A DNA stretch of 64,000 nt from Chromatiales bacterium. Its GTDB lineage: Bacteria; Pseudomonadota; Gammaproteobacteria; Steroidobacterales; Woeseiaceae. The notes beneath the pieces were generated by a model. The model searched no databases, had not been told where the DNA came from, and worked only from the letters and a program-made list of their open reading frames with translations. The stretch covers positions 1 to 64,000 of the forward strand of contig JAIBDF010000003.1 of the NCBI GenBank assembly GCA_024679535.1, read 5' to 3'. Of this stretch, positions 4,962-17,887 are shown in pieces. The stretch's first letter is position 1. Each line of letters begins with the position of its first letter. A program made the position numbers and the translations under genes.

Positions 4962-5396
4962 CTATTCGCTGACAGCAGCCGCGGCTTCGTCGATGCGATT
5001 AGTCTGTTCCAGCAAAGGTACCTGCCCTTCGGGCTGATGTACAAGCTTCCCGTTAATTTCGGCGCCAATCGCCATTTCGATCAGATTGTAATACACATTA
5101 CCAATAACACGCGCGGTCGGCCCCAGTTCCACACGTTTGCTGGCGAACACATCGCCCTTGACGATGCCGTTCAACACGACATAAGGCACCGTAACACCGC
5201 CGTCGACCGTACCAATATCGCTGATGCTCAGCGCCGACTCGGTATCGGGGTCCGCGGAAATATTGCCATTGACGACGCCATCGACGTGGCAGCCGCCCTG
5301 AAATTGCAGGTCGCCATTGACCTTGCTATTGGGGCCAATGAGCGTCTCAACGACCGTGTGTCTGCGCTGTTTCTTGCCGAACATCTGGTTCTCCAA
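4962..5396 (-). CDS. Bactofilin (polymer-forming cytoskeletal protein)
   Basis: ETLIGPNSKVNGDLQFQGGCHVDGVVNGNI... beta-helical bactofilin pattern. Confidence 0.92.
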   Translation of the reverse strand: MENQMFGKKQRRHTVVETLIGPNSKVNGDLQFQGGCHVDGVVNGNISADPDTESALSISDIGTVDGGVTVPYVVLNGIVKGDVFASKRVELGPTARVIGNVYYNLIEMAIGAEINGKLVHQPEGQVPLLEQTNRIDEAAAAVSE

Positions 5397-12607: not shown

Positions 12608-14134
12608 GTGTCAAATGTCGCTGTCGCAACTACGTCGCAGCTTGCGGCCGATGCGGCCCGTGAAGTTGCAGACGTCGGGGGAAACGCCGTTGACTGCGCA
12701 CTGGCCGCGGCCCTCCTGACGATCAATACGGAACCCGGCGTTTGTGCGTTGGGCGGCAGTGCATTTATCACTATCTGGAGCGACGGCGCGGATCCCGTCA
12801 CTGTCGACGGTAACGTTGCGGTGCCCGGCAAAGGTCTCTCCGACAACGAGCGCAAACACGGCGCGGTCGAAATCTCGCTGGCCTATGGCGGCGGCATAAC
12901 GACGCTTGTCGGACCGGGATCAGTATCGGTCCCTGGCACGCTCGCCGCGATGGAAGATGCTTGGCAGAACTACGGCAGTGCGCCTTGGCGCGCTATCTTC
13001 GAGCCAACCATTCGAGCCTGCCACGAGGGCTTCGCGCTGTCCCGGGCCTGCAGGTACTACCTGGGCTACTCAGGCGACATTATTTTTGGCCGCAGTACAG
13101 ATGGCCACAAAGCCCTGCACCGCGATGACGGCTCACTTCTGGATGCCGGAGACACGGTTCACGTGCCGCACCTCGCCGATACGCTCGACGCCATTGCGCG
13201 TGAGGGCGCGCGACTTTTCTATGAGGGCGAGGTTGCACAGGCTCTGGCCGGTCATTGCCGCGATGGCGGCGGCATGCTGACACTTGAGGACCTGAGCACC
13301 TACCGCGCGGTCGAGCGCAAGCCGCTGATGACGAACATCGGCGACTGGCAGCTTGCCAGCAATCCGCCACCGGCTGTCGGCGGATCGGTGCTGGCTGCCC
13401 TGTTGCTGGCCTGTGCCGACCTGCGCACCGACCGCTGGGACTCGCGGTCGTTGTCGCGCCTCATTGATTCGCAGCGCGCCTGCCTCGATTTCCGGCAACG
13501 AAACCTCGATCTGGCGGAGGACGTCGGCGCGGAGGCGGCGCGCCTGGTCGAAGCCGCACGCACCGGACGACTCTTGTCACGCTGGACATCTGCTTCCACA
13601 GTGCACACCTCCGTTGTAGACGACAGCGGCAATGGCTGCGCAATAACAGCATCCTCGGGCTATGGCTCCGGCGAGATGCCGGATGGTACAGGTCTGTGGC
13701 TCAACAACTGCCTGGGTGAAATCGAACTCAACAGGCGCGGTCTCGACGCCGGACCGCCGGGTGCACGCCTGCCCTCCAATATGACGCCTGCGGTGGCACG
13801 CCGGGATGGCGCAGTAATGGCGGTCGGTTCACCGGGCGCTGACCGCATTACTACCGCCATGCAGCAGTTCCTGATTAACTACATGCAGCTCGGTATGCCC
13901 CTCGCCGATGCCATCGCGCACCCACGCGTGCACGTCGACACCAGTGGCGATGAAGTGCAGCTCAAGGCGGAACCCGGTCTTGACCTGCCCGAGGTAGACC
14001 TCCCCGTCACCGTGTTCCCGGAACTGGTCATGTACTTCGGCGGTGTTGGCGCTGCGCAATTCGATGACGATGACGGCTTCGCCGTCGCAGCGGATCCACG
14101 TCGCGAAGGTGGCGTCTTTAACCCGGACGCATGA
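12608..14134 (+). CDS. Gamma-glutamyltransferase-like Ntn-hydrolase without evident signal peptide
   Basis: GGNAVDCALAAALLTINTEPGVCALGG, putative nucleophile region STVHTSVVDDSGNGCAIT, NNCLGEIELN. GTG start 3 nt after the frmA stop. Confidence 0.88.
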   Translation: MSNVAVATTSQLAADAAREVADVGGNAVDCALAAALLTINTEPGVCALGGSAFITIWSDGADPVTVDGNVAVPGKGLSDNERKHGAVEISLAYGGGITTLVGPGSVSVPGTLAAMEDAWQNYGSAPWRAIFEPTIRACHEGFALSRACRYYLGYSGDIIFGRSTDGHKALHRDDGSLLDAGDTVHVPHLADTLDAIAREGARLFYEGEVAQALAGHCRDGGGMLTLEDLSTYRAVERKPLMTNIGDWQLASNPPPAVGGSVLAALLLACADLRTDRWDSRSLSRLIDSQRACLDFRQRNLDLAEDVGAEAARLVEAARTGRLLSRWTSASTVHTSVVDDSGNGCAITASSGYGSGEMPDGTGLWLNNCLGEIELNRRGLDAGPPGARLPSNMTPAVARRDGAVMAVGSPGADRITTAMQQFLINYMQLGMPLADAIAHPRVHVDTSGDEVQLKAEPGLDLPEVDLPVTVFPELVMYFGGVGAAQFDDDDGFAVAADPRREGGVFNPDA

Positions 14135-15867
14135 TGATCCAGCGACTTGCCAGTCTCTCAATTCTGTCGCTGTGCCTGCTATGCGTCACGAGCCAGGGCG
14201 ACGAGACTATTACACGCGGCAACAACCTGTCCGTGGATGTTGCCGCGGACGGCCGGCTCATCATCGATCTTGCAGGCGACATTTGGGCGATTCCCGCGGC
14301 CGGCGGTGATGCCACCAGAATAACCGACGGTCTCGGTTCGGCACGGCGGCCCCGCTGGTCCCCTGATGGCTTGCGGGTTGTATACACGGTGAATGCCATG
14401 CAAGAACAGGGTCTATGGGTGCATGACACATCTAACCAGGAAACCCTGTCCATCAGTGAAAATTCTCACTTCGATCTGGATCCGACCTGGCATCCCGACG
14501 GTCAGCGCGTGACCTATGCATCCGATCGCACCGGCAAGGGATTCGACCTGTGGGAGGTTGATCTGCCGACCGGACTCCACTGGCGTCTGAGCAGCCGACC
14601 CGGCGACGAGATGGAGCCCGCCTGGTCTGCCGACGGCAAGCACCTTGTCTACATTCACAAAACCCAGGATCAATGGTCTCTGGTGCTGCGACGCCTTGGC
14701 AAACGCGAGGACGTTCTTGTCTCCGGGACAGACCGACTTGCCGCGCCAACCTGGCGACCGGACGGAAGCCTGATCACTTTCTGGCGGGACGGCGATGACG
14801 GAACGACCCTCGATATGGTGATCCTGTCGCAACCCAGGCTGGTGCGACGCTACATGGACGGCGAAGACTACGTAACGAGTCCGGTGAGTTGGCTCGACAA
14901 ACACCGCATGTTCTATTCCGCGGGCGGCGTTATTCGCCAGCGGCTGTTTAACGCATGGTCGTCGCGCACCGTGCCGTTCCGGGCGACGATTGACGCCGCA
15001 CCGGCAGCGGTTGCTAAAAGGCAGCGGCGCACGCTGCCACGTGGCGGTGAACCGCAGGGCATCCTCGTCATACATGCCGCGAAGCTGTTCGACGGGATTG
15101 GCGGCGGCTATCAGCAAGACCGGGACATTGTCATCGAGGGCGGGCGTATAAAGTCGGTTGAAGCCCATGCGGACCGCCCGGGCCTGATCGTTATCGACAT
15201 GGGTGACCTGACCGTGCTGCCAGGGTATGTCGACGCGCAGGCACTACTGCCGCTTACAGCAGACGAAACCACCGGCCCGCTCCTCCTGGCCGCCGGCGTC
15301 ACTACGATTGTCGCGGACCATCCGGAAGCCGAGCATCTGAATACCGTCTGGTCCGGAAAGGAATTCCCCGGCCCGCGTATCCTGCCCGCCGCCGACTGGT
15401 CAGTCAGCGGCTACTCGGGTCTGGCTGACAGTATGACGCCCGGACTCGAGTCGCTGCTGCAGTCCCGACCTGCTCGACTCATCGGCTTCAGCGACATGAT
15501 CGCGCGGCGATTTAGCGAACCACCGTCGTTCGACGCAGGAAAGACCACGGTCGTACTCGGAAGCCGCCCAAATGGCATGCCGGCGGGAATCGCGCTTCAT
15601 GCCGAGTTACGCGCGCTGGTCGCGGCGCAACTCAAACCCGAACAGGCTCTGCGTGCAGCGGGCGTCAATGCCGCGGCGGAACTGGGTGTGGATCCGACGC
15701 TGGGCCGCCTCGCAACAGGAGCCGTCGCCGACCTGGTCTTTGTGGATGGTGATCCACTAACCGACATCAATGCGGCGCTGAATGTTGTGGCCGTCGTGCG
15801 CAATGGACGGTTTTTTAGCGTCGCTGGCCTGATCGACCGCGCGGCAGCCCGTGAAACCGTCGAATAA
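14131..15867 (+). CDS. TolB-like beta-propeller / amidohydrolase-like protein with degenerate metal site
   Basis: Signal peptide; WSPDG/WHPDG/WSADG/WRPDG propeller repeats; C-terminal VLPGYVDAQALLP and GIALHAELRALVAAQLKPEQALRAA...LGRLATGAVADLVFVDGDPL. Confidence 0.85.
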   Translation: MMIQRLASLSILSLCLLCVTSQGDETITRGNNLSVDVAADGRLIIDLAGDIWAIPAAGGDATRITDGLGSARRPRWSPDGLRVVYTVNAMQEQGLWVHDTSNQETLSISENSHFDLDPTWHPDGQRVTYASDRTGKGFDLWEVDLPTGLHWRLSSRPGDEMEPAWSADGKHLVYIHKTQDQWSLVLRRLGKREDVLVSGTDRLAAPTWRPDGSLITFWRDGDDGTTLDMVILSQPRLVRRYMDGEDYVTSPVSWLDKHRMFYSAGGVIRQRLFNAWSSRTVPFRATIDAAPAAVAKRQRRTLPRGGEPQGILVIHAAKLFDGIGGGYQQDRDIVIEGGRIKSVEAHADRPGLIVIDMGDLTVLPGYVDAQALLPLTADETTGPLLLAAGVTTIVADHPEAEHLNTVWSGKEFPGPRILPAADWSVSGYSGLADSMTPGLESLLQSRPARLIGFSDMIARRFSEPPSFDAGKTTVVLGSRPNGMPAGIALHAELRALVAAQLKPEQALRAAGVNAAAELGVDPTLGRLATGAVADLVFVDGDPLTDINAALNVVAVVRNGRFFSVAGLIDRAAARETVE

Positions 15868-16066
15868 TTTGACACAACACGCGTTGGCTGGCGATTCAAA
15901 CGGGGTAATTTCAAAATTATCAGCGATTTAAATGGTGTACTTGTTGGAATGACAAATGCCAGACGGTCCGAAACTGACGGATTAATTTACAAGAATGATT
16001 ACTGACGGCCGACCCGTAACGTTGAGCGGTCGCTAATTCATTGAAATTCTGACGTGCTGACACGGG

Positions 16067-16083
16067 TTGGCACAGGTCTTGCT
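16067..16083 (+). promoter_or_regulatory. Predicted sigma54 (-24/-12) promoter
   Basis: TTGGCACaggtcTTGCT; GG and GC spacing matches TGGCAC-N5-TTGC exactly. Confidence 0.6.
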
Positions 16084-16093
16084 TTTATAACTC

Positions 16094-16300
16094 TGCCCAA
16101 GCGAAGTGTAGCTGCGCGCGGGGACATATATCGGTCAGAAACAGGATTTAGACGCCAGAAGAATAACAAAAACAAAAAAAAGAAGGTCAAGATCCAATAA
16201 TAATTAGAAAGCATCTGTCTCCGATTACCTGATTCGCAGTTACCTCTTTTGAAAAAAAGAGAATCCAGCCCCGCCGCTAACGCCGCGGGGCTTTTTCTTT
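16094..16300 (+). ncRNA. Candidate sigma54-dependent Hfq-binding small RNA
   Basis: Predicted start ~12 nt after the -12 element; (AAN)9 at 16159-16185, (AAT)3 at 16196-16204, hairpin 16244-16261, intrinsic terminator 16267-16300; no plausible + strand ORF. Confidence 0.5.
16267..16300 (+). terminator. Rho-independent terminator
   Basis: AGCCCCGC-cgctaacgcc-GCGGGGCT followed by TTTTCTTT; perfect 8-bp stem. Confidence 0.8.
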
Positions 16301-16348
16301 GTGACACCACAAGGTCAGTTACAATGTTTCTTTGATGTGGGGCTCACA

Positions 16349-17887
16349 ATGAATAAGGCGACAGTTGTTTTACTCGCGATCGTCCTGTTCCTGCTTGCAG
16401 CCTGCGGCGTGGAGCAGCAGGATTTTTCGGAGGCGAGTATTGCCGACCTGCATGACCAGCTACAGCGCGGTGATATTACGTCAGAAGAACTGCTTGGATG
16501 GCACATCGAGCGCATCGCTGCGATCGACCGGTCGGGACCCGCGCTGCGGGCTATTATCGAGATCAATCCTGATGCACGCGACATTGCCGCAGCACTGGAC
16601 CGGGAGTGGCAATCGTCGGGGCCGCGCGGTCCGTTGCATGGCATCCCGGTCGTGCTCAAGGCGAACATCGATACAGCTGACCAGATGTACACGAGTGCGG
16701 GGTCGCTGGCCCTCGTGGACCACGTGCCACCGGAGGACGCATTCATCGTGAAGCGCCTGCGTAACGCAGGTGCGGTGATCCTTGGTAAGGCCAATCTTAG
16801 CGAGTGGGCGAACTATCGCTCTTCGCGGTCTTCGAGCGGCTGGAGCAGCGTCGGCGGGCAAACCCGCAATCCTTATGATACGGCGCGTTCGCCCTGTGGC
16901 TCGTCGAGCGGTTCAGGTGTAGCCGTGGCAGCGAATCTCACCGTTGTCGCTGTTGGCACCGAGACAGACGGTTCCGTTGTGTGTCCGTCCGGTATCAATG
17001 GCATCGTGGGCATCAAGCCGACCTTGGGACTCGTGAGCCGCAGCGGCATTATCCCGATCGCGCATAGCCAGGATACGGCGGGTCCTATGGCTCGTTCGGT
17101 GCGCGATGCGGCCATCCTGCTGACCGTGATGACCGGGGTGGATGCAGACGACCCGGCGACCAGCGACGCCGAGATACATCACGACTACTCGGCCAACCTT
17201 ACTGACGACGGCCTGCGCGGCAAGCGCATTGGGGTGCTCCGCTCGTTCTACGGTGCCGGCTCAAACCCAAATGTCGACGCGATCTACGAGGCGAGTATCG
17301 CTGCCCTCAAGGAACAGGGTGCCGAAATTGTGGATGGCATCGAGATTGATACGCACGGCATGTCGGAGGCCGAGAGTGAGGTTCTGCGTTATGAGTTCAA
17401 GGCGGACCTGAAGCGATATTTTGTCGGTTCGTCTGCGCCAATGGAATCGCTTGCCGACGTCATCGCGTTTAATGCAGCCAATGCCGACACCGTGATGCCT
17501 GTATTCGGCCAGGAGCGATTTCTCGCCGCCGAAGAGAAAGGTCCGTTGACCGAACAGGCCTATCTCGACGCCCTGGCAGACAGCAAGCGCATTGCGCGCG
17601 ATGGAATTGACGGGGCATTTGATGAGCATGGACTCGACGCGATTATTGCCATTACCAACGGCCCGGCCTGGATGATCGATCATGCCAATGGAGACGCGTT
17701 TCACATCGGCAGTTCCTCGCTGGCGGCCGTCTCAGGATATCCGAACATCACCGTGCCCGCAGGCTTTGCCTCGGATCTGCCAATCGGCCTGTCATTCATG
17801 GGAAAACCGTGGACTGAGAAACAGCTCATAGAGATCGCCTACGCATTTGAGCAAGCTACGGGAGCAAGACGTCCCCCGGCTCTATAG
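16349..17887 (+). CDS. Amidase signature-family lipoprotein
   Basis: Lipobox LLAACG; PLHGIPVVLKANIDT; GGQTRNPYDTARSPCGSSSGSGVAVAANL; GTETDGSVVCPSGINGIVGIKPT. Confidence 0.93.
   Translation: MNKATVVLLAIVLFLLAACGVEQQDFSEASIADLHDQLQRGDITSEELLGWHIERIAAIDRSGPALRAIIEINPDARDIAAALDREWQSSGPRGPLHGIPVVLKANIDTADQMYTSAGSLALVDHVPPEDAFIVKRLRNAGAVILGKANLSEWANYRSSRSSSGWSSVGGQTRNPYDTARSPCGSSSGSGVAVAANLTVVAVGTETDGSVVCPSGINGIVGIKPTLGLVSRSGIIPIAHSQDTAGPMARSVRDAAILLTVMTGVDADDPATSDAEIHHDYSANLTDDGLRGKRIGVLRSFYGAGSNPNVDAIYEASIAALKEQGAEIVDGIEIDTHGMSEAESEVLRYEFKADLKRYFVGSSAPMESLADVIAFNAANADTVMPVFGQERFLAAEEKGPLTEQAYLDALADSKRIARDGIDGAFDEHGLDAIIAITNGPAWMIDHANGDAFHIGSSSLAAVSGYPNITVPAGFASDLPIGLSFMGKPWTEKQLIEIAYAFEQATGARRPPAL

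Follow-up and report, generated by a model that had tools for sequence, protein, structure and literature searches.

A conserved structured RNA gene behind a PrsR-type sigma54 promoter in Woeseiaceae, a candidate Hfq-bound small RNA of the PEP-CTERM regulon

The stretch of DNA analysed here (the window, 64,000 nt of a Woeseiaceae draft genome, contig JAIBDF010000003.1) was confirmed to encode a structured RNA at positions 16094-16300. The gene, its conservation, its structure, its PrsR-type promoter and its co-occurrence with PrsR were established by computation. From these we infer that the RNA is transcribed, bound by Hfq and able to base-pair with targets, and it is probably a trans-acting, Hfq-bound, base-pairing small RNA (sRNA) of the PEP-CTERM (PrsK/PrsR) regulon. 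Woeseiaceae form one of the major bacterial groups in marine sediments. PEP-CTERM/exosortase systems are widespread in environmental bacteria and are needed for floc formation in some of them; to our knowledge, the signal to which these systems respond and their regulatory wiring are largely unknown. A preliminary description of the window had proposed a sigma54-dependent sRNA with an Hfq-type tract at this place, and that proposal is strongly supported by the conserved promoter, tract, stems and terminator. The genome also encodes both rpoN and hfq (G000:C69), either of which, if missing, would have spoken against it.

The predicted sRNA gene lies on the + strand, as do all parts given below, and its product is ~206 nt long; covariance model R1 matched it at 16094-16299. 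All of the elements listed earlier (promoter, tract, hairpin and terminator) are real and correctly placed in the window sequence, but the regulatory region begins further upstream, at 15975. Stem P1 is formed by a 5' arm at 16108-16115 and a 3' arm (GCAGTTAC) at 16236-16243. The near-invariant core GGATTTAGACGCCAGAAG (16144-16161), whose columns are invariant in 47 sequences, falls mostly in an apical loop and may be the region that pairs with targets. The (AAN)9 tract, a candidate site for the Hfq distal face, occupies 16159-16185 and is the sole AAN run of six or more triplets on either strand of the window. The second short A-rich element AATAATAAT is present at 16196-16204, as had been reported, and is AATAAYAAT-like in most orthologs. 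The hairpin CTCTTTT-GAAA-AAAAGAG is at 16244-16261, and the intrinsic terminator with its U tail is at 16267-16300, the arms (AGCCCCGC/GCGGGGCT) occupying 16267-16292 and being followed by T's. Both had been recognized previously, and both are conserved in orthologs, the hairpin with conserved arms and a loop of variable length, and the terminator with 98.9% of cells paired and compensatory changes. A simple terminator scan, which allows loops of up to 8 nt, missed the terminator, whose loop has 10 nt.

A blastn search with a 331-bp query recovered the element in 52 of 61 genomes of the genus, the window's own counted. The 38 genomes searched from other families of the order gave no match. The covariance model matched 85 genomes of the Woeseiaceae family set (n = 107) at E values of 1e-46 to 1e-17, and a pattern scan of named genomes returned 78 loci, in genomes titled as Woeseiaceae, Woeseia, or unplaced Gammaproteobacteria/Proteobacteria (one Chromatiales) MAGs. 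Alignment across relatives, which had been suggested as a check, showed the -24/-12 promoter, AAN tract, stems and terminator all to be conserved. In an alignment of 50 orthologs the -24/-12 elements, the 5' end TGCCCAAGCGAAGTGTAACTGC and the core CAGGATTTAGACGCCAGAAGAA are near-invariant; 3' of the core lie the A-rich tract, a GATCCAGATCC segment, GCAGTTACCTCT and the terminator, and the flanks are variable except for one conserved upstream block, the PrsR box. The window RNA folded at -58.4 kcal/mol (z = -3.39), with none of 200 shuffles as stable, and the AAN tract lay in the unpaired apical loop of this fold. Retention in 52/61 genus genomes, together with a fold that beats all shuffles, indicates that the element is more than a chance arrangement. 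Among the 47 sequences, P1 (GUAACUGC/GCAGUUAC) had 99.7% of cells paired with compensatory changes, P2 had both-sided changes at six of seven pairs, and the terminator covaried. The overall covariation score was 0.191; shuffles gave 0.133, with 0/500 reaching the observed value, and slid controls did not exceed 0.119.

The -24/-12 promoter TTGGCACAGGTCTTGCT (16067-16083, predicted start ~16094) is near-invariant in the 50 orthologs. The site originally read as TTGGCACaggtcTTGCT was found exactly there, with GG at 16069-70, GC at 16081-82 and a spacing of 10. The 64-kb window has no other + strand match to the pattern TGGCA[CT]-N5-TTGC, and a single match on the - strand. The conserved upstream block has the form GTCGg-N5-TTTACA; TTTACA is invariant over the 50 orthologs, and GTCG is present in nearly all of them, with GACG in the window and two close relatives. 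Proteobacterial PEP-CTERM genes are preceded by a 17-nt motif 1 ending in TTTACA and then by a sigma54 motif 2, with a mean spacer of 62.8 nt (SD 10.6, range 32-92) (Haft 2006, PMC1569441). In the same work motif 1 was predicted to be the PrsR site because the phylogenetic profiles match (PMC1569441), and a PEP-CTERM gene of Aquincola (pepA) was subsequently shown to depend on RpoN (PMC9850573). A 17-nt block ending in TTTACA lies at 15975-15991 (TGACGGATTAATTTACA), 75 nt from the promoter (to TTGGCAC) and so inside the published range, and is the predicted PrsR enhancer site, which the preliminary description had not included; the window's own copy was missed by the strict box pattern because it has GACG for GTCG. 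In relatives the box and sigma54 pattern precedes ORFs with VPEPGTLAMFAAGLLGFGFVARRRR-type C-terminal tails. In a class-wide sample the pattern was present in 48/370 genomes, and PEP-CTERM-like ORFs followed 38 of 62 pattern sites, the C-termini being judged by eye. In each of six genomes (G040, G121, G222, G118, G191 and G137) the strict PrsR-type pattern matches nowhere but at the sRNA promoter. A spaced TTAC...GTAA pair just 3' of the box was considered as a CbrB-type site and rejected, as it is not conserved among orthologs.

PrsR (TIGR02915 over cut-off) was detected in 73 of the 107 family genomes. Both sRNA and PrsR were found in 70, the sRNA only in 15, PrsR only in three and neither in 19, two of the last having been taken as sRNA-negative on the grounds that they are unnamed in the covariance-model match list. 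Fisher's test on this table gave p ~3e-9 (with kinship ignored and most genomes being incomplete MAGs). The association is not absolute, given the 15 genomes with the sRNA only and the three with PrsR only, most of them incomplete MAGs. Neither PrsR nor PrsK was found over cut-off in the window's own draft genome, which, like the GACG of its box, counts against the regulon reading. The match of its contig C128 to the relative locus L122 ends at L122 position 4550, and PrsR begins there at 5013; most likely PrsR goes unseen because C128 ends inside the syntenic block, and the gene probably falls in the missing sequence beyond that contig end. A group of small family genomes (1.1-2.5 Mb) has no sRNA and none is PrsR-listed, comprising a set from the family's genus g27 (G150, G219, G223, G249, G295, G297, G302 and G314) and G001, G004, G011 and G050, which suggests joint loss of sRNA and PrsR with genome reduction. 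In one relative (G030, L124:7759-11019) prsR adjoins a gene for a GlrR-like sigma54 response regulator, and this pair of matches recurs in many Woeseiaceae genomes.

Homologs were recognized in two further families of the order, f15 and f6. The three f15 loci (L112, L116 and L275), which are weak model matches, carry the box, the sigma54 site, a TGCGCA start, a GCCAGAAG core, an ARN tract and a terminator, and their P1 is GTTTCTG/CAGAAAC, a compensatory change. Two f6 loci (L205 and L207) have the box, the sigma54 site and an RNA containing ARN repeats, which read AAGAAGAAGAAACAGAATAAGAAGAAGAAG in L205; two more (L206 in G143 and L208 in G127) have the same RNA body and no recognizable box or sigma54 site. 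PrsR was over cut-off in all four promoter-bearing distant genomes (G222, G118, G191 and G137) and not in G143 or G127, which bear the RNA without the promoter. This comparison covers six genomes only, and its outcome was not foreknown; across them the presence of PrsR tracks that of the promoter, which ties the box to PrsR. The cases of G143 and G127 suggest that the RNA body can persist after its tie to PrsR is lost. Seven other weak model matches (L113-L115 and L209-L212) were rejected as homologs, having proved on inspection to be coding sequence or bare terminators. At four further loci, L237 and L238 (f88), L285 (G704) and L248 (G470), short stretches that look non-coding and contain AAT/ARN repeats and a terminator lie downstream of a PrsR box and sigma54 promoter; their sequence kinship to the window RNA is not evident, and they are possibly additional PrsR-driven sRNAs. 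At L240 and L241 (f149) a PrsR-type promoter precedes a conserved ORF of ~60 aa (MTDNNDEYGMVDQVPQDFV.../MIDNNKDEHSLVDQVPQDFV...) that has no PEP-CTERM tail and is possibly a small protein of the PrsR regulon.

The nine AAN triplets are present as first described (16159-16185), but an uninterrupted run is not universal, the fifth triplet being TAY in about half of the distinct tracts from relatives. Over 43 distinct 27-nt tracts the mean entropy was 0.24, 0.18 and 1.11 bits at triplet positions 1, 2 and 3, so that the first two positions are nearly fixed and the third is free. Hfq reads A-R-N repeats through an A site, an R site and a non-discriminating site (PMC4063720), and the tract, judged on its sequence, fits that register as a true triplet array. 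In 96% of 52 RNAs, distant ones among them, ARN runs covered more of the sequence than in shuffles of matched composition. The Hfq of the window genome retains the segments VSIYLVNGIKLQGQ and YKHAIS, which we take to carry the distal and proximal residues (roles assigned in part from PMC4063720).

These features would also suit an RNA that, once induced by PrsR, mainly titrates Hfq, alone or jointly with a Crc-like partner, away from mRNA leaders rich in A, in the manner of CrcZ. The nine triplets with a free third position, the extra AATAAYAAT element, the presence of Hfq in the genome and the persistence of the ARN-run excess in distant homologs whose remaining sequence has diverged all agree with such a sponge, which we nevertheless regard as unlikely. 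CrcZ is 407 nt long and has six A-rich stretches (PMC4063720), whereas the ~206 nt here contain a single tract of nine triplets plus a short element, and the contiguous triplets suffice for about one Hfq hexamer. A base-pairing sRNA of the class II type is accordingly the better model. The strongest conservation, moreover, is in the non-A-rich core GACGCCAGAAG, for which a pure sponge would have no need.

The adjoining GlrR-like gene counts against the PrsR reading and raises the alternative that another sigma54 activator, such as this regulator, drives the RNA, which would then act like GlmY/GlmZ in controlling envelope precursors. The GlrR site is TGTC-N10-GACA, to which the PrsR box may be loosely related. 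This alternative appears improbable: the box is the PEP-CTERM motif of the literature and precedes PEP-CTERM genes, two genomes (G031 and G026) have a match of GlrR-like size and score yet no PrsR over cut-off and no sRNA, and the RNA has no Rfam match to GlmY or GlmZ.

The order amidohydrolase, sRNA, amidase (window 14131-17887) is syntenic in Woeseiaceae, and a functional link between the three is not evident. The amidohydrolase is upstream in 65/65 and the amidase downstream in 48/65 Woeseiaceae loci. The amidase ORF begins ~50 bp past the terminator, an arrangement that, with the frequency of an amidase near the element, could point to a leader or attenuator of that gene in place of an independent sRNA. 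Such a leader is very improbable, as the terminator is intact in orthologs, the sequence beyond it is unconserved, and the RNA is retained at the two f15 loci tested, where there is neither amidase nor amidohydrolase. A small protein gene, with the tract as a Lys/Asn-rich coding segment, would account for variation concentrated at each third base and for a tract length that is usually a multiple of three, but is scarcely credible because 51 of 66 sequences have no in-frame ATG, GTG or TTG inside the transcript, the window itself has its GTG in that frame (16054) 5' of the promoter, and length and frame change in distant homologs. A minus-strand ORF (16038-16310) was rejected, being interrupted in 58/66 sequences.

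For the favored base-pairing sRNA of the PEP-CTERM regulon, the following course of events is proposed. PrsK would activate PrsR, which would bind the box at 15975-15991 and drive transcription by sigma54 RNA polymerase from the -24/-12 site (16067), yielding a transcript of ~206 nt that ends at the terminator (16267-16300). A long closed stem (P1 and P2) would display a loop with the invariant core GGATTTAGACGCCAGAAG and the nine AAN triplets; Hfq could then hold the triplets on its distal face and the terminal U's on its proximal face, as in the class II sRNAs ChiX and MgrR. The RNA would pair with mRNAs via the exposed conserved core, adjusting translation during the production of PEP-CTERM surface proteins and exopolysaccharide. 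A wider and more tentative reading is that PrsK/PrsR has a standing RNA output, PrsR and sigma54 perhaps driving ARN-repeat, Hfq-type sRNAs across PEP-CTERM-bearing Gammaproteobacteria. If so, exopolysaccharide and surface-protein sorting would be tied to post-transcriptional control. If it belongs to the PrsR regulon, this RNA, conserved as it is in Woeseiaceae, would offer a compact way to read PrsK/PrsR activity and to approach the control of surface polysaccharide by Hfq, and would add to the cases in which a sigma54 two-component system works by way of a small RNA.

Among known RNAs, CrcZ and CrcY had been offered as the analogy, and the likeness holds for the general layout: sigma54 dependence, A-rich triplets for the Hfq distal face and an intrinsic terminator. 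The placement outside Pseudomonas was correct. The closer analogy does not hold, as the present RNA is about half as long, has one main tract against six, has a PrsR-type box as its conserved enhancer where CrcZ depends on CbrB, and occurs in another bacterial order; CbrAB has been described as exclusive to pseudomonads (PMC6296734). An Infernal search of Rfam, put forward at the outset as a check, gave no match at gathering thresholds, and membership in the CrcZ family was rejected on a score of 8.6 bits for RF01675 (gathering score 95) together with the different activator box. Sub-threshold matches to anti-hemB, a Betaproteobacteria toxic sRNA, PrrF and a microRNA family appear to be based on terminators or composition. 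A CsrA/RsmA sponge was dropped on inspection, the sole well conserved GGA lying within stem P4. GlmY/GlmZ and Qrr are sRNAs that depend on sigma54 together with an activator of the NtrC family and are tied to envelope or collective behaviour (for a Qrr, PMC10162802). The window RNA, whose promoter is predicted to be of this kind, differs from them in its activator box and structure and has no Rfam match to either, GlmY/GlmZ not being listed even at E values up to 5. The class II Hfq sRNAs (ChiX, MgrR, CyaR and McaS) share with it an A-rich/ARN element and terminal U's, a layout that allows use of both Hfq faces (PMC6239178), here as nine AAN triplets with a free third base and a terminator with a U tail; the window RNA is longer, is predicted to be sigma54-dependent, has a closed long-range stem and showed no sequence relation to them in Rfam. 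With regard to the PEP-CTERM/exosortase regulon, no RNA member was found in the literature, which is weak evidence of novelty as subscription papers were thinly covered. The gene shares with that regulon (PMC1569441, PMC9850573) the 17-bp TTTACA box, the spacer range, the -24/-12 promoter and co-occurrence with PrsR, and differs in that the known members are protein genes, whereas the gene described here is for a non-coding RNA with a terminator of its own.
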